This document shows, piece after piece, positions 33,333 to 45,775 of a stretch of 64,000 nucleotides of DNA. Within the stretch, counting starts at the first letter, position 1. Every line of letters starts with the position of its first letter. The DNA comes from Xanthocytophaga agilis (GTDB lineage: Bacteria > Bacteroidota > Bacteroidia > Cytophagales > 172606-1), in NCBI RefSeq assembly GCF_030068605.1, contig NZ_JASJOU010000008.1, forward strand, positions 62,001 through 126,000. Direction: 5' to 3'. The position numbers were made by a program, and so were the translations under genes. The notes under the pieces are model-generated. The model was not told where the DNA came from. It saw only the letters and a list, made by a program, of their open reading frames with translations, and did not search any database.

Positions 33333-33785
33333 ATGAAGTTCCAGATAGTAATATTAACACTCCTGATTGGTGCATTTACTTTTTTATCTTCCTGTAAAAA
33401 AGATGAAGAAAATCCAGAGTCTACCCGCACAGAACTTCTGACCAGTCATTCATGGAAAATAAGTCAGGTACTGGCTAATGGTACACCCGTAACAGATGAT
33501 GCTATTCAATTGATTCTTGGGAGTGGGTCATCTCTTGCACAGCTTACCAGATCCTCCATTTTGTTTAAGACTGACAGTACATATACGGCAACTGATCAAC
33601 AAACAGACTCCACCTTTACTGATACCTGGTATTTTACAGATAATGAGACCAAAATCAGATTAGAAGCAGCATCAGATACATTTGATTTTACTATTGATTT
33701 ACTCTCAAAAGAGAAATTAAATCTTAGTACACGTTACACAGTATCAGGTTTAACTCCTACTATTGTTCTGCAGTTAGTACCATAA
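33333..33785 (+). CDS. Lipocalin-like lipoprotein, 150 aa
   Basis: It has a lipoprotein signal ending FTFLSSC (Cys21) followed by acidic residues. The mature part begins with ELLTSHSWKISQVLANG and continues with alternating beta strands including TWYFTDNETKIRL. This is the pattern of the small Bacteroidota lipocalin-like proteins, which have a conserved L-x-x-x-x-W-K near the start. It is outer-membrane or periplasmic; the ligand is unknown. Confidence 0.75.
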   Translation: MKFQIVILTLLIGAFTFLSSCKKDEENPESTRTELLTSHSWKISQVLANGTPVTDDAIQLILGSGSSLAQLTRSSILFKTDSTYTATDQQTDSTFTDTWYFTDNETKIRLEAASDTFDFTIDLLSKEKLNLSTRYTVSGLTPTIVLQLVP

Positions 33786-33919: not shown

Positions 33920-34840
33920 ATGTTATTTCACGGCGCCTATATTTTACACGAAAATCCTCGCATTGTTAGTCTCTGGGATGATGTAGCCCTTCAGAAAATC
34001 TCCTCTCAACAAAAAAAACATGACACATATTTTCTGCTGCATTTACCATGGAACCATGGTAAATTTCAAAAGATGTTGAGAAAAAAATTATTCTTTTCTC
34101 AATTAAGTAGTAAAGGATTTATGCCTGTCATGTTTACTAATTCCAAACGGGAAGAATCCTATAGAAAATTATTCCGTATTCCTGGTTTACAATGTTCTGC
34201 TTATATTTATACGGATGAAAAAGACTATGGTATATTGAGTGTTGATAAGAAATATGATGCTGTCTATGCAGCTCAACTTATGCCATTTAAACGTATTGAG
34301 TTGGCTAAAGAACTGAATAAGGTATTTGTTCTTACCTATACTCCCGGAGCAGGCAAAAGTGGAGAAAATGATTTGCCAAGTTTCTGTCCAGCAATGAAAC
34401 ATGCTGATTACAATAAAACATGGGTTGACCATATTGGTAAAAACCGCTTATTCAATCAGTCCCAAGTTGGATTATGCTTATCAAAAGAAGAAGGCCCTAT
34501 GTTAGCTAGCCTGGAATATATGCTTTCAGGACTACCGGTAGTAAGTACAGAAAGCGAAGGAGGGCGGGATGAGTATTATGACAAAGAATATTGTCTTATA
34601 GTGAATGATAACCCTACCGCAATCCGCAAAGGTGTAGAAGAAATGGTAGCCCGTCAAATAGATCCAAATTATATTCGGGAAAAAACCATAACCAAATTAA
34701 ACCAGGATCGCCAACGCTATGTTGAGTTTATCAGTGATTATGTACGTAAGAATAGTCATGTTATATTAGATCCGTCAGAACTAATGCATCAGATTTTTGA
34801 TAAACCTAAGAATAGCTTTATTCCGGTTGATAAACTATAA
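33920..34840 (+). CDS. GT4-like glycosyltransferase
   Basis: This 306-aa protein carries the sugar-nucleotide-binding half of the GT-B fold: SQVGLCLSKEEGPMLASLEY (the E-x7-E-type region of GT4) and SGLPVVSTESEGGRDEYYD. The N-terminal half is shorter than usual for GT4 (350-400 aa). No signal peptide or membrane helix is seen. It probably builds a surface glycan. The acceptor and sugar are unknown, and no partner genes are adjacent. Confidence 0.78.
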   Translation: MLFHGAYILHENPRIVSLWDDVALQKISSQQKKHDTYFLLHLPWNHGKFQKMLRKKLFFSQLSSKGFMPVMFTNSKREESYRKLFRIPGLQCSAYIYTDEKDYGILSVDKKYDAVYAAQLMPFKRIELAKELNKVFVLTYTPGAGKSGENDLPSFCPAMKHADYNKTWVDHIGKNRLFNQSQVGLCLSKEEGPMLASLEYMLSGLPVVSTESEGGRDEYYDKEYCLIVNDNPTAIRKGVEEMVARQIDPNYIREKTITKLNQDRQRYVEFISDYVRKNSHVILDPSELMHQIFDKPKNSFIPVDKL

Positions 34841-34894: not shown

Positions 34895-35458
34895 TTATTT
34901 TTCCAGATGACGTAATGCCATATCTTTATAAATGGACAAATCTGGTACAGGAATATTCATTTCTTTAGCTTGCTCATCCCAATAACGCATTTGCAGGTAT
35001 AACTGGAACCACTCTTCACCTTCAAATGCAGCAGCTTCACTAACACTCATACGTCCTCCCTGAAATTCAAGTGTTTTCTTACTAGCTTCTGAGAGATTAT
35101 TGTAATAATCCGGATTCTTGAATGTGAGATATCGTTTTGCCTGAACATGAGACTCAACCAACCGGGCTATCTTCTCTGAAAATCCTACCGCTCTCAAATA
35201 GTCAGCTCCTAGCTTCTCGTGATCTGTAACACCATATCCATCCATGTGCTCTGTAGTTTCATCAGCACACAAATGTCCAAAATCATGAAAGAAAGCTGCC
35301 AGAATAACTTCTTCATCGTAACCCTGTTGTTCGGCTAGCAAAGCGGCCTGAGTCATATGCTCAACCTGCGACACAGGCTCACCTATATAATCATCAGTTC
35401 CATGTATTTCATATAATCGAAAAATCTCTTCAACTTTTTGCTTAGTAGTGGTTTCCAT
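34895..35458 (-). CDS. PhnZ-like HD-domain mixed-valence diiron oxygenase
   Basis: This 187-aa HD protein matches PhnZ, which oxidatively cleaves the C-P bond of (R)-2-amino-1-hydroxyethylphosphonate to glycine and phosphate. The PhnZ residues I recall occur at the same numbers: Tyr24 and Glu27 (DYIGE), His34, His58-Asp59 (FFHDFGH), His62, His80, His104, Lys108 (SHVQAKRY) and Asp161 (WDEQ). No PhnY-type hydroxylase is in the window, so the source of its substrate is unclear. It is the last gene of the unit that begins with susC. The family is also known as the HDIG protein of phosphonate operons. Confidence 0.88.
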   Translation of the reverse strand: METTTKQKVEEIFRLYEIHGTDDYIGEPVSQVEHMTQAALLAEQQGYDEEVILAAFFHDFGHLCADETTEHMDGYGVTDHEKLGADYLRAVGFSEKIARLVESHVQAKRYLTFKNPDYYNNLSEASKKTLEFQGGRMSVSEAAAFEGEEWFQLYLQMRYWDEQAKEMNIPVPDLSIYKDMALRHLEK

Positions 35459-35507
35459 ATATACAGTTAGAATAATTTAGATGAATAAATAAGTAATGTA
35501 TAGTCTA

Positions 35508-36683
35508 CTAACTTACAACTTCATGTAACTTTGATTCAAATACATATTCTGCCAGTCCCAATGATAAAGTCATTCCGGCACCACCCAATCCATTGACAAT
35601 CCATACATTAGATTCCGCTTCTAATATCAGCTCAGTTCCTCCATTTGCGAGTTTAGGATAGATACCATGCCAGCGTTCCTTGATATGTAAATCAGGAAAC
35701 TGGGTGAAAGTGGCCAAATAGTCTAATACCCACTGATCTATTTCAGATTTGTCAAATGGTTCTGGTGTAAGTCCATATTCATGTGAATCACCTAAAGTCA
35801 ATTCACCTGCAGCATTTTGAGAAACCAATACGTGTATGCCATATTTCTTATAAGCAGGCATTGTCTGTGCAAACCGTTCATTTAAGGCAGCTAAAGAAGG
35901 ACAATCCTTGAAAGCAGCATAATGAGTGAGTGTCAAACCAGCACAAAGAGAGGCTCCCATTCGCCATCCATTGCCTTGCGGACTAGTTCTCATCATCTGC
36001 AGTTTACACTTTGTAATAGATGAAGAGGCAAATAATTCAGGATATAATGTTTCAAAGTCAGCTCCACTACATATAATTATCCGATCTGCTTGCCATTTTT
36101 GGCCACCGGCTTCCAGATAAGAACTATTTACACCAGTAACAGCAGTACCAAAATAAAAATCAATTTCATATTTTTGATGTAGAAAGTCAGGCAATGTAGC
36201 TATCACTTCGCGAGGATCCACAATCATTTCCGTTTCGCTCCATAAAGCGCCTATCAATCCCTCCTCTTTTACAGCAGGGCTCTTTTCCAGAATCTTTTTT
36301 GTGTCAGTCAATAGCTCACACGTATATCCATTACCACGGTTCTGCTCCACAAACTCTTCCAGAACAGCCCATTCATCATTGTGATAAGCAACATGCAACG
36401 ATCCATTAGGATTATACCAGAAGCCAGCTTGTTTAGCCAGATCCAGGTAAATCTCACGACTTCTTAATGCACGCTCTAATAATACTCCTGAAGGTTGTCC
36501 AACAGGCCATATCATACCAAAATTGCGGATAGAAGCTCCAATAGCCTTACCATTCCGTTCAAAAACGCCAACTTTAAGACCTCGTCTGGCAGCAGTATAA
36601 GCCATTGCCAAACCTACAATCCCAGCTCCAACTACTGCAACATCATATCTATTTTGTATATTGTTTGTGGATGAATGAGTCAT
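35508..36683 (-). CDS. FAD-dependent oxidoreductase of the phosphonate-catabolism type
   Basis: This 391-aa DAO-fold flavoprotein has an N-terminal Rossmann motif (VVGAGIVGLAMAYTAARRG) and a C-terminal FAD-contact motif (GLGGAGMTLSLGLAE). It looks like the DadA/DAO relatives repeatedly found beside PhnX- and PhnZ-like genes (the TIGR03364 type as I recall), which are thought to oxidise an aminoalkylphosphonate to its aldehyde or imine. It lies between the HAD and HD genes with short gaps (39 and 49 bp), so all three are probably co-transcribed. Substrate identity is inferred from context. Confidence 0.82.
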   Translation of the reverse strand: MTHSSTNNIQNRYDVAVVGAGIVGLAMAYTAARRGLKVGVFERNGKAIGASIRNFGMIWPVGQPSGVLLERALRSREIYLDLAKQAGFWYNPNGSLHVAYHNDEWAVLEEFVEQNRGNGYTCELLTDTKKILEKSPAVKEEGLIGALWSETEMIVDPREVIATLPDFLHQKYEIDFYFGTAVTGVNSSYLEAGGQKWQADRIIICSGADFETLYPELFASSSITKCKLQMMRTSPQGNGWRMGASLCAGLTLTHYAAFKDCPSLAALNERFAQTMPAYKKYGIHVLVSQNAAGELTLGDSHEYGLTPEPFDKSEIDQWVLDYLATFTQFPDLHIKERWHGIYPKLANGGTELILEAESNVWIVNGLGGAGMTLSLGLAEYVFESKLHEVVS

Positions 36684-36722
36684 ACTAACATGTTGTTTCT
36701 TTTAAGATTGTCGATATTTTAT

Positions 36723-37409
36723 TCATGATAAGGAGAAAATCTGATGCAGATCAGCAAGGGTGTGTATCAGATGCGTATGAGGCTCTCGCTCCAACTCTTC
36801 AACAGTATATGCACCAGTAGTTACACCTATTACCCATCCACACCCAGCAGAATCTCCCTGCTGCATATCAGATGCGGTATCTCCTACTTTTGCTACTTGT
36901 TTGCTATCCTGCACATGAGTCAGCTCCATAGCTTTAAATATCATATCAGGAAAAGGTCTGCCATTCTCAACTTCATCACTAGTCACACTATTGTCTATCA
37001 GGTTCTTTGCTCTCCATAACAATCTTTCAAGAATAGCATCAGTAATCTGACGATCAAATCCTGTATCTACTACCACTTTGACATTATGCCTTTTTAGCAA
37101 GGCAAATGTCTCACTTGCACCTTCTTTTTCTTTCACATCCGGACTATTCTGATAATAGTCTGTCATATCCTCTACAAAACGTTGATGAATCTGATCTATC
37201 AACTCTTCTGTGATCACTGAAGGGCTTGCATGACGTTCCAGTAATTGTCGGATAGCTACAGGTTTGGGTAAACCCATGAGTTCATTGGCATCTTCAAACG
37301 GAATAGCGACCCCATAATCTGCCAATGCTTTTTGTAAGAAATAAGGTACTTTATCTGCACCATCGACAGTGGTTCCTGCCAGATCAAATACAATCAGTTG
37401 TGGTAACAT
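36723..37409 (-). CDS. Phosphonatase-like HAD hydrolase (PhnX relative)
   Basis: This 228-aa HAD protein has nucleophile Asp9 in FDLAGTTVDG, the PhnX version of the HAD motif (DWAGTTVD in phosphonatase). MGLPK places Lys49 where PhnX has the Schiff-base lysine (MGLxK). Later come VVVDTGFDRQ, GRPFPDM and the acidic KVGDTASDM. It probably cleaves phosphonoacetaldehyde or a close analogue to acetaldehyde and phosphate. It is shorter than PhnX (about 265-270 aa) and may be the distinct phosphonatase-like subfamily. It follows the GDPD gene by 12 bp. Confidence 0.85.
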   Translation of the reverse strand: MLPQLIVFDLAGTTVDGADKVPYFLQKALADYGVAIPFEDANELMGLPKPVAIRQLLERHASPSVITEELIDQIHQRFVEDMTDYYQNSPDVKEKEGASETFALLKRHNVKVVVDTGFDRQITDAILERLLWRAKNLIDNSVTSDEVENGRPFPDMIFKAMELTHVQDSKQVAKVGDTASDMQQGDSAGCGWVIGVTTGAYTVEELEREPHTHLIHTLADLHQIFSLS

Positions 37410-37421
37410 AGAATAGTAAAA

Positions 37422-38276
37422 TTAGTGTTTACCTAATGTTTTCAGATAACCAATCAATTCTTCAGGACGATCTGTCTGTAAGGCTGTAATACCCATATCT
37501 ATTGCTTTCTGCCATTGCTCAGGCTTCTCATCAGGATTTTGAATATCAGGCCACACTTTGATACCCTGTTTTGTAAGAAAAGCCACATTCTCTTTGGTGT
37601 AAAACAATACAGATCCGTCCAGAATATCTACCGGATTTTTTACAATCCATTGTTTTAACTCATCATAACTAGTTATAGAATCTGGCATACTGACCATTAC
37701 AGGTACAGAAGACATTGTTTTCTTCCAATCTTGGACTTCTTCAGGCTCTGTATATACGATAACAGAACCAAGCATTTTGTATTTGTTTAGTAGACTCTTA
37801 ACCTGTTCCGGCTTGACATCTTTGCAATCCAGATAAAGATTTATTTTTCCCCGAGCTTCTTTTAGAATTTCTTCAAATGTAGGAGGGCTCTGATTAAAAG
37901 GATCATTTTTCAGCTTTAAAGCTTTAAACTGAGCCAAAGTCATCTCTGCTATTTTGGCTTCACCATTTGTAGTTCGATGTACGGATGCATCATGCATAAT
38001 TACCAGATATCCATCTTTTGTAGTGCGAATATCTATTTCAACATAATCAGCCCCAACCCGTATTGCTTCCTGTAAACTTTGAATGGAATTTTCAGGGGCA
38101 TTCACATGATTTCCACGATGTGCAATTACAATAAAGGGATAACGGGTAGAAGGAAATACGACCGATTTATGTTTTTCAGGAAAGCCATTACACCCAAAGA
38201 CTGTAAGAGTGACCAGATATGCAATTAACACATTCCAAAGAGTAATGATAGAACAAGTTATGTGATAATATTTCAT
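37422..38276 (-). CDS. Glycerophosphodiester phosphodiesterase, lipoprotein
   Basis: This 284-aa protein has a signal ending LTVFGC, a lipobox, so it is anchored in the periplasm or outer membrane. The GDPD barrel has catalytic pairs IAHRGN with APENS, metal ligands VEIDIRTTKDG and the second His in VIMHDASVHRTTNG, and a C-terminal LQTDRPEELIGYL. It hydrolyses glycerol-linked phosphodiesters. Next to phosphonate enzymes and a SusCD pair, it may release a phosphonate from a glycerol ester; this is inference. It lies between susD and the HAD gene in one unit. Confidence 0.92.
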   Translation of the reverse strand: MKYYHITCSIITLWNVLIAYLVTLTVFGCNGFPEKHKSVVFPSTRYPFIVIAHRGNHVNAPENSIQSLQEAIRVGADYVEIDIRTTKDGYLVIMHDASVHRTTNGEAKIAEMTLAQFKALKLKNDPFNQSPPTFEEILKEARGKINLYLDCKDVKPEQVKSLLNKYKMLGSVIVYTEPEEVQDWKKTMSSVPVMVSMPDSITSYDELKQWIVKNPVDILDGSVLFYTKENVAFLTKQGIKVWPDIQNPDEKPEQWQKAIDMGITALQTDRPEELIGYLKTLGKH

Positions 38277-38303
38277 TTCTGAAAAAGTAGTATAAGAGAA
38301 TAA

Positions 38304-38338
38304 TGAGCATCTCTACAAAACAGATGTAGAAATGCTCA
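38304..38338 (-). promoter_or_regulatory. Intercistronic hairpin between susD and the GDPD gene
   Basis: TGAGCAT/ATGCTCA and TCTACA/TGTAGA arms form one imperfect stem in the 85-bp gap. It may terminate part of the transcripts or protect the susCD message, reducing the expression of the enzymes downstream. Confidence 0.5.
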
Positions 38339-38361
38339 TAAAAGAATTTACAAGAGGAAAA

Positions 38362-39942
38362 TTATTTTAACAACCACATAGCAGTGTTTATATCATCTGT
38401 TCCTCCAAATTGAGATTGTAGCGCTGTATTGAGATTCCCTTCATTTGTTGTTTGTTCGGAGGTTGGGTACTGCCATCTTTTGGGAATGCGGGCACTATTA
38501 CCTGTGCCTACTCCTGTTAAGAAAGCAGGTATACCTGTCCTTCTTTGGTTATAGAATGCTTCAAAACCTGAGTTCTGAAAAAATGATAGATATTTCTGTG
38601 TAAGAATTTGGGTTAATCCGTCTGTGTTATTACCCTTATATTTGACAGTAATCTGGTTTAAATAATTGGTTACTGAAGTAGTCACAGAACCTAGTTCATT
38701 TTTATTCTGGTCAGCTACAGTAATTGATCCCTCATCTGTAATATCATAAAACTTCATAGAAGCCTTGATACCTTTTACATAGAATTCCTCTGCATCACCG
38801 CTTATCCACCCTCTGTTAATCGCTTCTGCAATGTTGAAACACATTTCAGAATAGCCTATAATGATTCCGGGCTCACCTGTGTAGTTACTGTAATATCTCA
38901 AACGGTTAATAAAAGAATACTCCCCCTGATTGGCCTTAGAGGACATATCCGTTAGATCTTCACCTGAGCTAGCCCCAACATATGCTTCGAAATCATTGAA
39001 CTTAACACCTGCATTCAATTTAGCTTGTGCGGGTGCTGCTGCAATAAAAATACGAGGATCTTTTAATGATTTTAATAGGTCTATATGCAACTTGGACATG
39101 TTCTGACGGGTAGCATCAAATCCAAAATTCCCAGGGTTTGTGGGATATTGATTATATGTAGCATTGTATGTAAACTGAAGATTGTCTTCCAAACTAGTCA
39201 TAACCGGATACTGAGTTGGATTATTAATGATAGAAGCAAATTTTTGCTTAATATTTAAATCCGCATCAGATTCTTTCTTGCTTAAACTCATTAATACACG
39301 AAGAGTATAGGTATTAACTAGCTTTTGCCACTTCTTCAAAACCTCTACCTTATTAGCACTTCCGTCTGTATCATAGTAAAAGTCTCCAACCAGAGTAGTA
39401 TTATTTGCAGCAATCAGTTCTGCTAAATCGGAATTAGCCTCATCCAGTAACTTCAAAGATTCTACATATACAGATTTTTGGGTATCATATACAGGTGTTG
39501 TTACCTCAAGTCCTTTCAACGCATCAGTCATAGGTATATCTCCTACTCTCTGTGTCATGTATATAAAAAAGTAAGCTCTGAAGAACTTACCCAATGCAGA
39601 ATATGGATTCACCTCACCAGCACCTGCTGCCAATGCTTCTTCTTCCATCTTTACCACATTTTTTAAAGTAGCATAATTCCATGCAGTAGAAGTCCAGCTG
39701 TATTGGTTATTACCATAGTAGTTATAATTAATACAATAGAACTGATTCCAGCGATGTACATCTCCCCAAGGACCCTCTACTCCAGTTGGAGAATAAAGAT
39801 CTTTTAATACACCTTGCAATACTAAAGAAGCAGGCACCGAAGAAGGACTATTTGTATTCTTTTCAAGTTCTTTAAAATTCTGACATCCTCCGAGAAAAAA
39901 TATTCCGGAAAGAAGAAGCAATGAATATATATATGTTTTCAT
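38362..39942 (-). CDS. SusD/RagB-family outer-membrane lipoprotein (SusD-like_2)
   Basis: This 526-aa surface lipoprotein has a lipobox FFLGGC (Cys20) and the SusD-like_2 start QNFKELEKNTNSPSSVP. TPR-like helices include YSALGKFFRAYFFIYMTQRV and GDIPMTDAL, both typical. It binds substrate on the outside and forms a lid on the SusC channel encoded upstream. The partner enzymes suggest a phosphonate or glycerophosphodiester ligand rather than a glycan. The gap to susC has a strong hairpin. Confidence 0.95.
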   Translation of the reverse strand: MKTYIYSLLLLSGIFFLGGCQNFKELEKNTNSPSSVPASLVLQGVLKDLYSPTGVEGPWGDVHRWNQFYCINYNYYGNNQYSWTSTAWNYATLKNVVKMEEEALAAGAGEVNPYSALGKFFRAYFFIYMTQRVGDIPMTDALKGLEVTTPVYDTQKSVYVESLKLLDEANSDLAELIAANNTTLVGDFYYDTDGSANKVEVLKKWQKLVNTYTLRVLMSLSKKESDADLNIKQKFASIINNPTQYPVMTSLEDNLQFTYNATYNQYPTNPGNFGFDATRQNMSKLHIDLLKSLKDPRIFIAAAPAQAKLNAGVKFNDFEAYVGASSGEDLTDMSSKANQGEYSFINRLRYYSNYTGEPGIIIGYSEMCFNIAEAINRGWISGDAEEFYVKGIKASMKFYDITDEGSITVADQNKNELGSVTTSVTNYLNQITVKYKGNNTDGLTQILTQKYLSFFQNSGFEAFYNQRRTGIPAFLTGVGTGNSARIPKRWQYPTSEQTTNEGNLNTALQSQFGGTDDINTAMWLLK

Positions 39943-39974
39943 GGGTCTGTATTTAAATTTAGTGTCAGGTTAGA

Positions 39975-40017
39975 GTACAGAAGACAGAGAGATTTACAAA
40001 CATTCTGTCTTCTGTAC
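39975..40017 (-). promoter_or_regulatory. Intercistronic hairpin between susC and susD
   Basis: GTACAGAAGACAGA pairs exactly with TCTGTCTTCTGTAC around a 15-base loop, in the 87-bp gap. There is no U-tract. Such hairpins may set the susC:susD ratio by stabilising the upstream message. Confidence 0.55.
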
Positions 40018-40029
40018 AGAAAGTTTATT

Positions 40030-43000
40030 TTAAAACACTACATTCAGGTTAAATCCGTAACGACGGGTAGTTGGGGTCTGAAGGTTAGAAGAACTCTGAC
40101 TACCTGCATATTGATCAATATCTACATCTTTTTCTTTTGCAAAGTAAAGAAGGTTACGTCCTACAAAAGATACATTAGCCTGTCTGATAAAAGTCTTAGA
40201 TAACCATGTAGAAGGAATAGTATATCCAATGACTACTTCTCTTAACTTTCCAAATGTTTTACTGATTAGATTACCCTCTGCAGTAGAGTAATAGCGACTG
40301 ATATAATCCTGCAGAAAAGTCTTTGTTGTGTTAGGGGCATATTGTAATTCATCATAGTTGGTTACCTTTCCATCTGTTCCATAGTTAATAGCAGCCCCAT
40401 TTGATATTACAACGCCCTGTCCTATGTAGGATTTTACATTTTGTACGTCATTGGCACGAGCAATACCCATATCACCCTGTACAGTAGCAATATGACGACC
40501 ACCTCGGAAAGTCTGACGTTTTACATAATCAACCATAACACCTCCTACCCGACCATCAAACTGAAAACTCAATGTAACTCCTTTGTAATTGAATTTGTTA
40601 TTAATTGACCACACCCAATCAGGATTCGAATATCCCAGAAATTGATTTATAGTAGTTTGAATAGGTCGTCCACCATTATCATTGATAATCTTACCGTCTG
40701 GGGTTCTTACGAATGCCTGGTCATAGTATTTATCTACACGATCACCAATTTTATAGAATGTATTTAATGACTTTTCATTACCATAAAACTCTTTATAAAT
40801 TTCTTTATACGTTGACCAGTTAGCAACAACATCCCATGTAAATCCATTATTTGTTTTTATAGGAGTACCTGTTACAGCTATTTCCCAACCTGTTTTTTGC
40901 GTTTTAATTCCATTAACTAAAGCATAATCATAACCTGTAGTTTGTGAAATAGGTAAACTGAATATACGCGGTCCATTGTTGTTTGTATAGTAGGTCAGAT
41001 CAAATCCTAAACGGTTTTGTAGAAAACGGATATCCAGACCAGCCTCAAACGAAGAAGTGGAAGTAGGCTTTAGATTAGGGTTATTTAACGTATTTGTATA
41101 TACAGCATATGGTTGGTTGTTATAATATTTACTTAATGAATAAGATGCAGAATTGACATAACTTGGTCCATCATACGAAGAATAATAAGCAGCACCATAG
41201 CCAATAGGATATCCGGCAGGGCCAATTGTAGAAGAAGTGCCACCATCTTTCACATTAGCATAAGATCCTCTTACCTTTAGAAAAGACATCACAGAAGGCA
41301 GATCTACATAATCAGAAATAACTGTACTTGCTGTAACAGACGGATAGAAGTAGGTGTTATTCTTGGCAGGCAATGTAGAAAGCTTATCTACACGACCTGT
41401 TGTAGACAAGTTAAGAAAACCTTTGTAGGACAGATCAAGAGAGTAATAGCCACTACCTACCTGCATCTTTGAGTTAAAATTATAAACTTGGACAGCATTG
41501 CGGGAGTTACTGAAATTATACACTCCAGGCGTATTGAGATAATCTGTTGTAGCAAAGGTAGAAGTATAATTAAATGTACGAAGACTACCACCAGCAAAGG
41601 CTGTTACATTCAAACCAGGTAATACATCTTTACTAAACCGTAATAAAAGATCTGTATTATTCTCGAATAGATTTCTGCGGTCTTCCCTATAATCTCCCAT
41701 ACCTAGTTCTCTATCATACGAAATAGCAGAATAAGGCATCTTCTCTGTTCTCAATACATTCCATGTAGTTACCTGAGTACGGAGAGTTGCCTCCAAATAG
41801 TCAGTCAGCTTATAGCGCAATGATGTATATCCATATACATCGTTTTTGTAATGTCCACGTAACCATTCTTTTACAACAAACCATGGGTTATTATAACGTT
41901 GATACTCTGCATAAATCTGTGCTGTTCCCTCCTTACCAGGCTGCCAGTATGACCCTCCCTTATCTGGATTAAAGTCATCAATATTCCAGTCGGCGCCACC
42001 CCATATAGTAATATTGTAAATCAAACTATTGGGCCCATAATTTACATCCGTAATATTAGGAGTGCTTTGTCTGTTGTAATTAATACTGGATTCCAAACGG
42101 AGCTTAGGAGAAAAGTTTATCCCGTTTGCCATGTTGAAATTGGTAATATTCAACTGAGTATTAGGAATAATGCCTTTCTGATAAGAATTAGAAACGGAAA
42201 ATCGCAGATCATACTTGTCATTACTAGATGATATAGAAATATTGTTAGTAGATAAGATCCCGGTTTGAATAAATCTATTCAGGTTATCTTTACCACGAGC
42301 TATAAAAGGAGTAGGCTGTCTATCACTGGTAAAAACAGCACCATTAGGAAATGTAGTAGTATACGTTTGTCCAGGAGTAACCGGACTATCATATTGTGGC
42401 AATAATTGTCCATTCAATGCGGGTCCCCAAATGTCATAATCTCCATCATTCTTCCCAGCACCTTTGCCATTGCCAAACGCATATACACCATGATCTCCGG
42501 GACCATACATATTCTGTGTTTTAGGGATAGCATTAAATCCCCGATCAAACATGGTACTTGAATTAAACTCTATAGAAAATCCTCTTTTATCAGAAGAACC
42601 TCTTTTAGTAGTAATCAGAATAGCACCATTCTTACCTCTGGAGCCGTAAAGAGCAGAAGCATTAGGGCCTTTTAGTACAGTATATGTTTCAATATCATCA
42701 GGACTTACATTCCATGTATCTGAGTTAACAGGTACACCATCTACAACAAAAAGCAAATCTTCATTTCCTCTAAGTACTAGTTGAGGACGGCCCAGCATTT
42801 CAGCAGAAGCTCCAACAGTCAAACCTGCCACCTTACCCACTAATGAATTGATAGGGTTAGGCTCACGGGCTTTAATCAGATCTTCCCCTTTTACTTCTTG
42901 TGTAGCATACCCAATAGTTTTTGCATCTTTTTTAATACCTAGGGCTGTCACAACTACTTCCTGCAATGCCTTTGTATCAGCCACCAAAGGCACATCTATT

Positions 43001-43308
43001 ACGGCTCTGTTGCCTATAGTTATCTCTTGTGACAAATAACCTATAAAGGAAAATATCAGCATCTCTTTTCCCTCAGGAACCTCAATAGAGTATTTACCAT
43101 CAGCACCAGTAGTTGTACCTTTTGTTGTACCTTTAACAACAACAGATACACCTGGTAAACCAGCATCTTCTTCTGTAGATGTCACCTTTCCTGTAATAGT
43201 CCGGGTTTGTGCATAGCTATCATATACCCCCAGAAAAAATACACAGAAAAGTGTAAACCCCACACACCTCTTTAGCAAAGAAAATGGGTTGTGTAAATAA
43301 TTTTTCAT
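40030..43308 (-). CDS. SusC/RagA-family TonB-linked outer-membrane protein
   Basis: This 1092-aa TonB-dependent transporter has a signal peptide, a CarboxypepD_reg-like domain (residues ~36-125: ITGKVTSTEEDAGLPGVSVV), a plug with the SusC box region (EVVVTALGIKKDAKTIGYA) and YGSRGKNGAILITTK, then a 22-strand barrel ending in NLNVVF with a terminal Phe. It imports bulky substrates with SusD. It heads the operon and is divergent from an XRE-cupin regulator. Its leader may be opposed by an antisense transcript (see 43308-43471). Confidence 0.96.
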   Translation of the reverse strand: MKNYLHNPFSLLKRCVGFTLFCVFFLGVYDSYAQTRTITGKVTSTEEDAGLPGVSVVVKGTTKGTTTGADGKYSIEVPEGKEMLIFSFIGYLSQEITIGNRAVIDVPLVADTKALQEVVVTALGIKKDAKTIGYATQEVKGEDLIKAREPNPINSLVGKVAGLTVGASAEMLGRPQLVLRGNEDLLFVVDGVPVNSDTWNVSPDDIETYTVLKGPNASALYGSRGKNGAILITTKRGSSDKRGFSIEFNSSTMFDRGFNAIPKTQNMYGPGDHGVYAFGNGKGAGKNDGDYDIWGPALNGQLLPQYDSPVTPGQTYTTTFPNGAVFTSDRQPTPFIARGKDNLNRFIQTGILSTNNISISSSNDKYDLRFSVSNSYQKGIIPNTQLNITNFNMANGINFSPKLRLESSINYNRQSTPNITDVNYGPNSLIYNITIWGGADWNIDDFNPDKGGSYWQPGKEGTAQIYAEYQRYNNPWFVVKEWLRGHYKNDVYGYTSLRYKLTDYLEATLRTQVTTWNVLRTEKMPYSAISYDRELGMGDYREDRRNLFENNTDLLLRFSKDVLPGLNVTAFAGGSLRTFNYTSTFATTDYLNTPGVYNFSNSRNAVQVYNFNSKMQVGSGYYSLDLSYKGFLNLSTTGRVDKLSTLPAKNNTYFYPSVTASTVISDYVDLPSVMSFLKVRGSYANVKDGGTSSTIGPAGYPIGYGAAYYSSYDGPSYVNSASYSLSKYYNNQPYAVYTNTLNNPNLKPTSTSSFEAGLDIRFLQNRLGFDLTYYTNNNGPRIFSLPISQTTGYDYALVNGIKTQKTGWEIAVTGTPIKTNNGFTWDVVANWSTYKEIYKEFYGNEKSLNTFYKIGDRVDKYYDQAFVRTPDGKIINDNGGRPIQTTINQFLGYSNPDWVWSINNKFNYKGVTLSFQFDGRVGGVMVDYVKRQTFRGGRHIATVQGDMGIARANDVQNVKSYIGQGVVISNGAAINYGTDGKVTNYDELQYAPNTTKTFLQDYISRYYSTAEGNLISKTFGKLREVVIGYTIPSTWLSKTFIRQANVSFVGRNLLYFAKEKDVDIDQYAGSQSSSNLQTPTTRRYGFNLNVVF

Positions 43309-43471
43309 ACATTTGGTCGTTTTTTAATGAATAGTGGTATTTGTTAAAAACAAAGAAAGCCCTGGATCACTTTTTAACTGAAAAGTGACCTGGTGTTCAT
43401 GGGAAGATGGACAAACAAAGGCTTTTGCATTAACCGGGGTTGTTGCCGCAATCCCGGTTTTTTTATAGCCT
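43308..43471 (+). ncRNA. Possible antisense RNA opposite the susC leader
   Basis: A plus-strand TACATTTG (exact TAnnTTTG) overlaps the susC start codon, with a TTG 16 bp upstream. About 130 bp further comes AACCGGGGTTG...CAATCCCGGTT followed by seven T, a strong plus-strand terminator with no plus-strand gene in front of it. Together they predict an antisense RNA of roughly 140 nt covering the susC 5' leader. Similar antisense RNAs repress susC genes in Bacteroides. It is predicted only. Confidence 0.35.
43434..43471 (+). terminator. Orphan rho-independent terminator upstream of susC
   Basis: An 11-bp G/C-rich stem (one G-U pair) is followed directly by TTTTTTT on the plus strand. It is not behind any plus-strand gene. 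On the minus strand, the same hairpin lies in the susC leader without a U-tract. Confidence 0.7.
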
Positions 43472-43544
43472 TATGAGAATAGGAAGTCTTTTATTTTATC
43501 ATAGATTGTTAGATAGAGAAGGGTAGTTTGTTTTAAGTATGGTT

Positions 43545-43552
43545 CAAAAGTA
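43545..43552 (-). promoter_or_regulatory. Candidate susC promoter -7 box (TACTTTTG)
   Basis: An exact TAnnTTTG on the minus strand, giving a susC leader of about 230 nt that contains two hairpins (including TCACTTTT/AAAAGTGA near 43364-43388). A weak TTG lies about 23 bp upstream. Confidence 0.45.
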
Positions 43553-43718
43553 TAAACTCTAAGTTTACTAATATACAACTTAATTTTAAATCATTGTTAA
43601 ATTTTGCCCCTGGTGGCAACTCAAGTTTAACTACATTAAACTATTCTTCATATTTGCATGAGACAAGAGATACCTTTTCACTGATAACCTTCAATGCACC
43701 AGTACACAAAACAATTGC

Positions 43719-44306
43719 ATGAATAATCAAATATTTATACGAATTGGGAAGAAAATACGCGAGATAAGAAACCAGCAACAGATTAAACTGCAGGAACTAG
43801 CAGAAGAGTCACAAATAAGTAAGGGCCTACTATCACGTATTGAAAATGGACGCACTATTCCCTCTTTGCCTGTACTTCTATCCATAGTCAGATCATTGAA
43901 GATTAATCTGGACGTTTTTTTTGAAGGCCTTGACCTACCCGAACAACAAAAATATATTCTTCGTCGCAAATCAGAATATACTCCTTTTGAGAAAGAAGAA
44001 GGCTTTGGGTTCCTTTATCATTCCATTTTAACCTCCAGTATTCCATCTGTCACAGTTGAGGCGGTTATTCTGGATCTTCAGCCCGGCTCCCAAAGAGATC
44101 CAGTTATAACAGATGGATATGAATTCAAGTATCTGTTAAAAGGTGAGATAGAATATCAATTAGGAGATGACGTTATTGTAATGCAGGAAGGAGATTCTTT
44201 ATTTTTTAATGGTAAGATTCCGCATGTACCTATAAATCGTACAACTATACCTGCCTCTCTTCTGGTCATATACCTTCTTTTGCCAACGGGTAGTACTGGG
44301 AATTAG
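43719..44306 (+). CDS. XRE-family regulator with C-terminal cupin
   Basis: This 195-aa protein has an HTH_3 domain (residues 6-62: GKKIREIRNQQQIKLQELAE, then SKGLLSRIENGRTIPS) and a cupin (VEAVILDLQPGSQ, FKYLLKGEIEYQLGDDV and GDSLFFNGKIPHVP). In this class the cupin binds a small ligand that controls DNA binding. It is divergent from susC, so it is likely the local regulator of the phosphonate/SusCD unit; the inducer might be the imported compound or a breakdown product. Confidence 0.9.
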   Translation: MNNQIFIRIGKKIREIRNQQQIKLQELAEESQISKGLLSRIENGRTIPSLPVLLSIVRSLKINLDVFFEGLDLPEQQKYILRRKSEYTPFEKEEGFGFLYHSILTSSIPSVTVEAVILDLQPGSQRDPVITDGYEFKYLLKGEIEYQLGDDVIVMQEGDSLFFNGKIPHVPINRTTIPASLLVIYLLLPTGSTGN

Positions 44307-44407: not shown

Positions 44408-45775
44408 ATGGATATAAAAGACCTGTTTCTGACCCCAATATATTTATTGTTTATCTATGCAGTTGCATTTATGATAAACAACCGAATCCGCAATAAAGTC
44501 ATCCGCCCATATTTTATCCCTGCACTCAATGTAAAGATTATAGGAGCTATAGCATTGGGACTCATTTATCAGTTTTATTATTATGGAGGTGATACATACA
44601 ATTATTTTAAAGATAGTAAAGTTATATGGGAAGCGTTTCTGGACTCTCCATTCAAAGCCATTAGTATTATATTCACGGATAGGCAGTATGATCCCAGCAT
44701 CTATGAGTATGTAAGACGTATTTATTTCTATGTTGACCCCAATTCCTTTCATGTTGTTCGTCTTTCCGGCTTTTTTGGATTATTCACATTTCATACCTAT
44801 AGTCTGATTGCTATATTTTTTGCCATTACATGTTTTTCAGGTATGTGGGCATTATACAAAGTCTTTTATGACTTATATCCTCACCTACATAAAAAGCTAG
44901 CATATGCTATATTCTTTATTCCATCTGTTTTTTTTTGGGGTTCAGGCCTTTTGAAGGATACAATTACATTAGGAGCATTGGGATGGATGTTTCACGCGTT
45001 TTATTTTGGCATTATCAAACGACAACATATAGTAACTAATATTGTGGTTATGTTTGTAGCCATTCTGGTTGTACAAGGTATTAAAGTGTATATTCTGCTC
45101 TGTTTTCTACCTGCTGCATTCTTTTGGATTTTTATGGAATATAGAGCACGCATCCGTTCTGGCCTCTTACGGTTTATTACACTTCCCATTGTTATAGCCA
45201 TATCAATACCCATCAGTTATAGGGCTATTACAAAGATTACAGAAGAAAATACACGTTACCAACTGGATAATATTACAGCAACCACGAAAACCACCGCAGA
45301 ATGGTTACGTACTGTTGGAACCAATCAAGGCGGATCTGTATATTCACTAGGCGAATTTGATGGTACATGGACAAACATGATTTCCAAAGCTCCAGTTGCG
45401 ATTAATGTAAGCTTGTATCGCCCTTATCTTTGGGAAGCACGAAACCCTGTAATGATTTTGTCAGCCCTAGAAGCTGCTTTTTTTCTATTTCTTACTGTAC
45501 GGATCTTTCTACAAATCAAGTTAAGTCGCTTATTTCATATACTTACCTCTCAGCCTATCTTATTATTCTGTATCATCTTTGCCCTTACTTTTTCATTTGC
45601 AGTTGGAGTGAGTAGCTATAACTTTGGTACTTTGGTACGATATAAAATACCTATGATGCCTTTTTTCCTGTCAGCACTATACATCATTCAAAGTCAGGCA
45701 ATCAAAAAGAAGAAGAAAAAACGGAGAGATCCATTTATGGCAGCTCAGCCCAATAACGTTGTTGCAACAACTTAA
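44408..45775 (+). CDS. Multi-spanning membrane protein of a glycan locus, 455 aa
   Basis: About ten to twelve hydrophobic segments are visible, with a conserved-looking loop YYYGGDTYNYFKDSK after the second helix and FFIPSVFFWGSGLLKD midway. This pattern resembles EpsG/Wzy-like or GT-C membrane proteins of surface polysaccharide loci in Bacteroidota. It ends in a basic tail. It converges with two glycosyltransferase genes. The role (polymerase or membrane glycosyltransferase) is an inference. Confidence 0.7.
   Translation: MDIKDLFLTPIYLLFIYAVAFMINNRIRNKVIRPYFIPALNVKIIGAIALGLIYQFYYYGGDTYNYFKDSKVIWEAFLDSPFKAISIIFTDRQYDPSIYEYVRRIYFYVDPNSFHVVRLSGFFGLFTFHTYSLIAIFFAITCFSGMWALYKVFYDLYPHLHKKLAYAIFFIPSVFFWGSGLLKDTITLGALGWMFHAFYFGIIKRQHIVTNIVVMFVAILVVQGIKVYILLCFLPAAFFWIFMEYRARIRSGLLRFITLPIVIAISIPISYRAITKITEENTRYQLDNITATTKTTAEWLRTVGTNQGGSVYSLGEFDGTWTNMISKAPVAINVSLYRPYLWEARNPVMILSALEAAFFLFLTVRIFLQIKLSRLFHILTSQPILLFCIIFALTFSFAVGVSSYNFGTLVRYKIPMMPFFLSALYIIQSQAIKKKKKKRRDPFMAAQPNNVVATT

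Follow-up and report, generated by a model that had tools for sequence, protein, structure and literature searches.

The PusCD complexes of the phosphate utilization systems (PUS) of Flavobacterium are induced by low phosphate and co-localize with phosphatases, diesterases and phosphonate-degrading enzymes (PMC8115612). They form the closest precedent for the locus described here, and since their account already puts SusCD proteins near phosphonate-degrading enzymes, in one sentence, the idea of such a pairing is not wholly new. PbfD enzymes oxidize N-methyl-aminoethylphosphonate to phosphonoacetaldehyde, and PbfD2 also accepts plain aminoethylphosphonate (AEP). PbfD1 of A. baumannii is annotated as TIGR03364, a route of PbfD2 and PhnX that lacks PhnW is published for Mariniblastus fucicola, and PbfD homologs have been placed also in the FCB group (PMC10590968). 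The AEP permease AepP is an inner-membrane carrier of the major facilitator superfamily (MFS) related to GlpT (PMC8316502). Here, we present an analysis of a 64,000-nucleotide stretch of the Xanthocytophaga agilis genome (contig NZ_JASJOU010000008.1), referred to as the window. One minus-strand unit in the window encodes a SusC/SusD pair, a GDPD-family enzyme, a PhnX-like phosphonatase, a PbfD-type flavin adenine dinucleotide (FAD) enzyme and a PhnZ-like oxygenase, and faces the gene of an XRE-cupin regulator. The locus probably serves the substrate-regulated utilization of phosphonates or their esters.

The SusCD pair recurs with carbon–phosphorus bond genes

The SusD of the window has a relative at E ≤ 1e-120 in 16 of the 395 Bacteroidota genomes of our first survey. 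Three SusD candidates were scored per genome, and each of the 16 genomes holds one close match. Fourteen of these close SusDs, from six families, are encoded within 10 kb of a PhnZ or FAD gene. In the opposite direction, 13 of 17 PhnZ-like genes have a close SusD relative at a distance of no more than 8.5 kb, and the co-presence of the two per genome has p = 4e-21 with kinship ignored. For the SusDs that rank next (five sequences, E 1e-70 to 1e-91), the fetched stretch, where PhnW was not queried, contains no PhnX, FAD, PhnZ or DUF5690 gene. The FAD enzyme family TIGR03364 is present in 33 of the 395 genomes and in 7 of 8 genomes of the window's family, its own genome being counted in both. 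The 38 other FAD-gene neighborhoods, several of them on short contigs, contain PhnX (25), DUF5690 (23), SusC (20), XRE-cupin (19), SusD (18) and PhnZ (15) genes.

In a second survey, named genomes were ranked by SusD similarity alone, and the best 80 of 582 relatives were taken. At least one carbon–phosphorus (C–P) catabolic gene is found in 64 of these 80 loci, and in 48 of the 57 that are at least 15 kb long. The loci hold genes for PhnZ (50), PhnX (45), DUF5690 (42), the PbfD-type FAD enzyme (37), an XRE-cupin protein (10), PhnW (9) and PbfA (5). Neighboring genes were named by BLAST with set thresholds, below which a gene was counted as absent, and names given at low identity, such as PhnX at 26–35% and phospholipase C at 24–29%, are weak.

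The distant relative L080 has the gene order SusC-SusD-PF01663-PhnZ-PhnA-PhnY-PhnW-DAO-DUF5690, with PhnW, PhnY and PhnA above their cut-offs. It combines a different C–P route with the same importer, which supports a role of the SusCD pair in phosphonate catabolism. A second group of SusDs also stands at phosphonate loci (L042, L050, L051, L058, L063, L065 and L070), one of them from the window's own family. The first-pass annotation had proposed from gene order that this SusCD pair serves phosphonate catabolism. The reverse searches, locus L080, and a palindrome that precedes both susC and enzyme genes in five loci of two lineages bear this out. The link is not a chance neighborhood.

In the Dyadobacter loci L148, L153, L157, L158, L164, L170, L179 and L180, which contain this SusCD clade, none of the phosphonate genes searched for was found within roughly 10 kb. 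In a FastTree phylogeny, which includes few SusDs picked without regard to phosphonates and was read for topology without support values, seven Dyadobacter SusDs form one group nested inside the phosphonate-linked ones. SusDs of this kind that lack phosphonate genes are a minority, mostly this one clade, and the nesting makes loss or relocation of the genes likely.

Predicted enzymes of C–P bond cleavage

The alignment of the PhnZ-like protein with PhnZ (PDB 4mlm) is free of gaps across residues 4–186. The di-iron ligands and Tyr24, Glu27 and Lys108, which we take to be the relevant PhnZ positions, are all present, as the first-pass annotation had said of the metal ligands. They are kept in all 66 aligned copies of 170–230 amino acids. 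The same Tyr and Glu are also found in TmpB, so these residues do not separate substrates. Against the models of TmpB and hydroxymethylphosphonate dioxygenase, the protein scores 145 and 128 of 300 bits, respectively.

The PhnX-like protein has the Asp nucleophile, the Schiff-base Lys49, the Arg and the two acidic Asp residues. Among 75 aligned copies, the Asp, Arg, Asp and Asp positions are invariant and the Schiff-base Lys is kept in 74. The protein fails the canonical PhnX model TIGR01422 (118.7 versus 220 bits).

PhnW, which had been noted as missing from the window, is missing from the whole genome as well: seven matches were found, none above the cut-off. The further claim of a pathway unlike the known ones was too strong, given the published pairing of a PbfD-type FAD enzyme with PhnX in the absence of PhnW (PMC10590968). 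The unit contains no PhnY; no genome-wide search for it was made. Without this oxygenase partner in the unit, a hydroxylated substrate of the PhnZ-like enzyme would have to come from outside. 1-Hydroxy-AEP (HAEP) has been reported in membranes of Bdellovibrio stolpii (PMC12366243, PMC4642753), and the enzyme would take it ready-made. The first-pass annotation found the presence of two C–P-cleaving routes odd; we infer that they correspond to two related substrates, AEP or N-methyl-AEP on the one hand and HAEP on the other.

A TonB receptor similar to that at L053 3984-6053 recurs within the locus in L115, L117, L119, L120, L147, L171 and L188. Its best matches are heme/hemoglobin receptor models, below the cut-off, and it possibly supplies iron for the di-iron PhnZ. 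Locus L113 (13178-14971) encodes a di-haem cytochrome c peroxidase (PF03150), which perhaps deals with peroxide from the FAD oxidase.

Proposed ester-cleaving step

Phosphoesterases of four families, GDPD, PF01663, PF04185 and PF00149, stand beside this SusCD pair in relatives of the window. PF01663-like genes occur in 27 and PF04185-like genes in 29 of the 80 named loci (named by BLAST, with the families confirmed by Pfam on members), and PF00149 was detected in three of the scanned proteins (L115, L118 and L123). Unrelated phosphoesterases thus take the place that GDPD has in this genus, which supports, in outline, an ester-cleaving step in the locus. A glycerol- or lipid-linked phosphonate ester is a plausible substrate.

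The best solved-structure match of the window GDPD is 3i10, and no further match to it was found in its own genome at E ≤ 1e-10. The GDPD N termini look signal-like by eye. A crude hydropathy test assigned signal-like N termini to 26 of 26 PF01663-like and 29 of 30 PF04185-like proteins, versus 4 of 50 PhnZ and 9 of 46 PhnX proteins; the test is only a rough guide, as it also flags 30 of 37 FAD enzymes, which have a hydrophobic Rossmann start. The enzyme had been described as a lipoprotein acting outside the cell. The lipobox Cys of the window GDPD is replaced by Trp in the sister species (L040), was not seen at that place among the N-terminal 50 residues of L079, and was not seen as a lipobox in L123. 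Because this Cys is not kept, the enzyme more likely acts in the periplasm, after import, than at the surface. The GDPD is a candidate esterase of the phosphonate ester, probably located in the periplasm.

Candidate inner-membrane carrier

We infer that the inner-membrane carrier missing from the window is DUF5690 in many relatives, where it would transport aminophosphonates. DUF5690 has a predicted MFS fold, and the model is nearest to SLC37A4, which we take to belong to the same organophosphate family as the GlpT-related carriers. A genome search found no DUF5690 in the genome of the window, and our literature search found no paper naming it. Copies of DUF5690 beside which no phosphonate gene was recognized occur at L083, L089, L091, L092, L095, L096, L100, L101 and L102, where PhnW was not queried; the family may have other substrates as well. 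The membrane open reading frame (ORF) at 44408-45775 of the window was rejected as the carrier, as it has no Pfam match, is 99% identical in genome G006, above the identity of the unit itself, and lies beside ORFs whose products look like glycosyltransferases.

Regulator and palindrome

When 36 upstream regions of XRE-cupin genes were compared de novo, the palindrome GTTTA-N7-TAAAC emerged. It is exact in six of them (shuffle mean 0.03), two of these being the regions from the window and from the sister species. With one mismatch it occurs in 11 regions (shuffle mean 1.7, largest 6), and with two mismatches in 23 (mean 14, largest 18). The 150 loci L040-L189, which span 2.63 Mb, contain 37 exact sites, 34 of them intergenic and often paired 20 bp apart. 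Of the intergenic sites, 31 stand before susC, phnX, DUF5690 or the regulator gene. The palindrome precedes both susC and either phnX or DUF5690 in L048, L049 and L054, which are of one genus, and in L172 and L175.

Among palindromes, it is the commonest before susC (8 of 74 loci). Before PhnX, DUF5690 or FAD genes (8 of 112 loci) it ties for second place with a run of T (8), behind TAAAC-N3-GTTTA (9), which probably reflects tandem GTTTA-N7-TAAAC sites. It was found before other genes in 2 of 140 loci. The upstream sets used for this ranking overlap in part with the 36 XRE-cupin regions. Of the 34 loci that encode an XRE-cupin protein, 19 contain the exact site, versus 2 of the 116 that do not, where it lies inside a gene both times (p = 6e-13, kinship ignored); for a control word the counts are 1 of 34 and 2 of 116. 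In the window, the one-mismatch form is at the chance level (5 found, 4.5 expected). We read the palindrome as the putative operator of the XRE-cupin regulator where this regulator is present. The XRE-cupin protein matches the PuuR model with a score far under the cut-off. That the palindrome tracks the regulator gene suggests control by substrate; no search for a Pho box or PhoB was made.

Layout of the locus

The seven genes of the locus lie where the first-pass annotation had placed them (Table 1). From susC through the PhnZ-like gene, the gaps on the minus strand are 87, 85, 12, 39 and 49 bp, which confirms the reported range of 12–49 bp for the enzyme part. SusC and SusD form an adjacent pair in which both profiles are matched, and the lipobox Cys of SusD is present; this Cys20 is invariant in 17 of 17 aligned sequences. 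A solved-structure search with the SusD profile returned SusD homologs with uninformative ligand names.

Table 1 Features of the probable phosphonate locus of Xanthocytophaga agilis (window positions)
Feature	Position	Strand	Details
SusC/RagA TonB-dependent outer-membrane transporter	40030-43308	minus	1092 amino acids; TIGR04056 483.8 bits, cut-off 368.25
SusD-like lipoprotein	38362-39942	minus	526 amino acids; PF12771 211.3 bits, cut-off 27
GDPD-family enzyme, signal-like N terminus	37422-38276	minus	284 amino acids; PF03009 113.3 bits, cut-off 23.6
PhnX-like HAD phosphonatase	36723-37409	minus	228 amino acids; TIGR03351 204.1 bits, cut-off 218.9
PbfD-type FAD oxidoreductase/oxidase	35508-36683	minus	391 amino acids; TIGR03364 457.7 bits, cut-off 285.1
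PhnZ-like di-iron HD oxygenase	34895-35458	minus	187 amino acids; TIGR03276 221.2 bits, cut-off 214.6
XRE-cupin regulator, divergent from susC	43719-44306	plus	HTH_3 and Cupin_2 above cut-off
Candidate operator GTTTA-N7-TAAAC	43625-43641		between susC and regulator

The flanking genes at 33920-34840 and 44408-45775 are 97% and 99% identical to those of the sister species (L040), and the unit is 88–96% identical, as if it evolved faster than its flanks. At 33333-33785, a third ORF of the flanks shares just 81% identity, and this speaks against such a simple pattern.

Proposed mechanism and alternative explanations

We propose that the SusCD pair binds and imports, with energy from TonB, an aminophosphonate attached to a larger molecule. 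The secreted, probably periplasmic GDPD-family esterase would free the aminophosphonate, which would be moved into the cytosol by an inner-membrane carrier, DUF5690 in many relatives and another carrier here. The FAD oxidase of the PbfD type would act in the cytosol and, to judge by its family, convert AEP and N-methyl-AEP into phosphonoacetaldehyde, and the PhnX-like enzyme would cleave this into phosphate and acetaldehyde. PhnZ would split (R)-1-hydroxy-AEP into phosphate and glycine. The XRE-cupin protein would control the unit through GTTTA-N7-TAAAC, most likely as a repressor released by ligand.

Several observations weigh against this mechanism. SusD stands in only 18 and PhnZ in only 15 of the 38 FAD neighborhoods, some of which are on short contigs, so the FAD gene alone does not imply SusCD. 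Two of the 16 close SusDs, those of genomes G014 and G260, are near neither a PhnZ nor a FAD gene. Of the 16 named loci without a C–P gene, seven are shorter than 15 kb, and the nine longer ones comprise eight from Dyadobacter and one from Terrimonas. An esterase of any searched family is found in only 48 of the 80 named loci and an XRE-cupin gene in only 10. GDPD is a neighbor in 3 of 150 loci (L040, L079 and L123), and for this reason we rejected the view that it defines such loci. Moreover, GDPDs usually leave the phosphate on glycerol, and the sole leaving group of a phosphonate monoester is its alcohol. The PhnX-like protein falls narrowly below the TIGR03351 cut-off. No exact palindrome is present in 129 of the 150 loci, and in the genome of the window it occurs 27 times, a background level, versus 22 for the control word.

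It is somewhat unlikely that the imported substrate is a phosphonate-decorated glycan or peptide instead of a lipid ester, with the C–P enzymes processing the released side group. SusCD pairs normally serve glycans or peptides, AEP is found on some bacterial capsules, and one PF01663 enzyme, at the related locus L055, bears a lectin-like domain. However, profile scans of the unit's proteins detected no glycan-cleaving enzyme, and PF04185, which presumably includes phospholipases C, recurs in relatives. We regard as unlikely a general organic-phosphorus locus of the PUS type, in which the SusCD pair takes up glycerophosphodiesters or other ordinary phosphodiesters, and the enzymes of phosphonate breakdown are one more branch under phosphate control. 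The gene neighborhoods of low-phosphate-induced PusCD (PMC8115612) fit such a locus, GDPD, PF01663, PF04185 and PF00149 enzymes act on phosphate esters too, and of the five SusDs next in rank, all without PhnX, FAD and PhnZ neighbors, three (L105, L106 and L107) are still near a PF01663-like gene. The recurrence of C–P genes with this SusD clade and not with the five next SusDs, as far as the queried genes go, argues against it, as do the retained catalytic residues of the C–P enzymes and the link between the palindrome and the XRE-cupin gene.

Chance or lineage inheritance, which would merely have left the SusCD pair beside a phosphonate cassette in a SusCD-rich genome, is highly improbable. 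Up to 163 SusC-profile candidates were counted in the genome at first look, 27 of which were scored, so that some SusC is near many genes. The single close SusD match of each genome, out of three candidates scored, is nevertheless beside a PhnZ or FAD gene in 14 of 16 genomes, across six families and with differing gene orders and C–P routes, and with the 64 C–P-linked named loci this led us to reject chance adjacency.

The preferred reading, a substrate-regulated locus for phosphonates or their esters, retains part of what the first-pass annotation had proposed. The link between SusCD and phosphonates stands and the ester step holds in outline; a conserved GDPD surface lipoprotein and the novelty of the route without PhnW do not. 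We conclude that the locus is a real, recurrent variant of a PUS-type locus, specialized for phosphonates. More tentatively, we can envisage a dedicated phosphonate-ester system across much of Bacteroidota, which we hold to be possible rather than probable. In such a system, SusCD pairs would have been recruited at least twice, as the two SusD groups suggest, for phosphonolipids or other esters, and combined with interchangeable secreted esterases (GDPD, PF01663, PF04185 and PF00149) and C–P modules. DUF5690 would be a new family of aminophosphonate permeases, and the XRE-cupin protein and GTTTA-N7-TAAAC would define a substrate-sensing regulon.

Comparison with known systems

The classical PhnCDE transporter is an inner-membrane system for small phosphonates in free form. 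The same holds for the described AEP transporters (PMC8316502). If our proposal is true, a SusCD route through the outer membrane would explain how Bacteroidota could gain access to lipid- or glycan-bound phosphonates. The recurrence of the pairing in many relatives suggests that it may be a widespread, little-described route of phosphorus recycling. The analysis provides a likely function for one SusD clade, a candidate function for DUF5690 and a candidate regulator-operator pair, and the ideas can be tested in environmental bacteria that are in culture, for example Spirosoma fluviale or Runella defluvii.

AepP and DUF5690 are both of the MFS type at the inner membrane, as predicted in the case of DUF5690, which is a Pfam family of its own and is not encoded in this genome. 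The PhnY–PhnZ route (PDB 4mlm) shares PhnZ with the locus, including what we take to be all ligand positions, whereas its PhnY partner is not in this unit. The PbfD2–PhnX pathway and the locus have in common a TIGR03364 FAD enzyme and a phosphonatase without PhnW (PMC10590968). That pathway has no outer-membrane importer or esterase, and the terms 'TonB', 'bacteroid' and 'phosphodiesterase' do not occur in the main text of PMC10590968. PusCD and the locus share the association of SusCD-like complexes with phosphoesterases (PMC8115612). PusCD is defined by induction at low phosphate. The available account of PusCD does not name PhnX, PhnW or PhnA, and describes PusD as polyphyletic (PMC8115612). 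In contrast, the locus described here is characterized by one SusD clade spread over many families, by PbfD, PhnX and PhnZ enzymes, and by an XRE-cupin gene with its palindrome.

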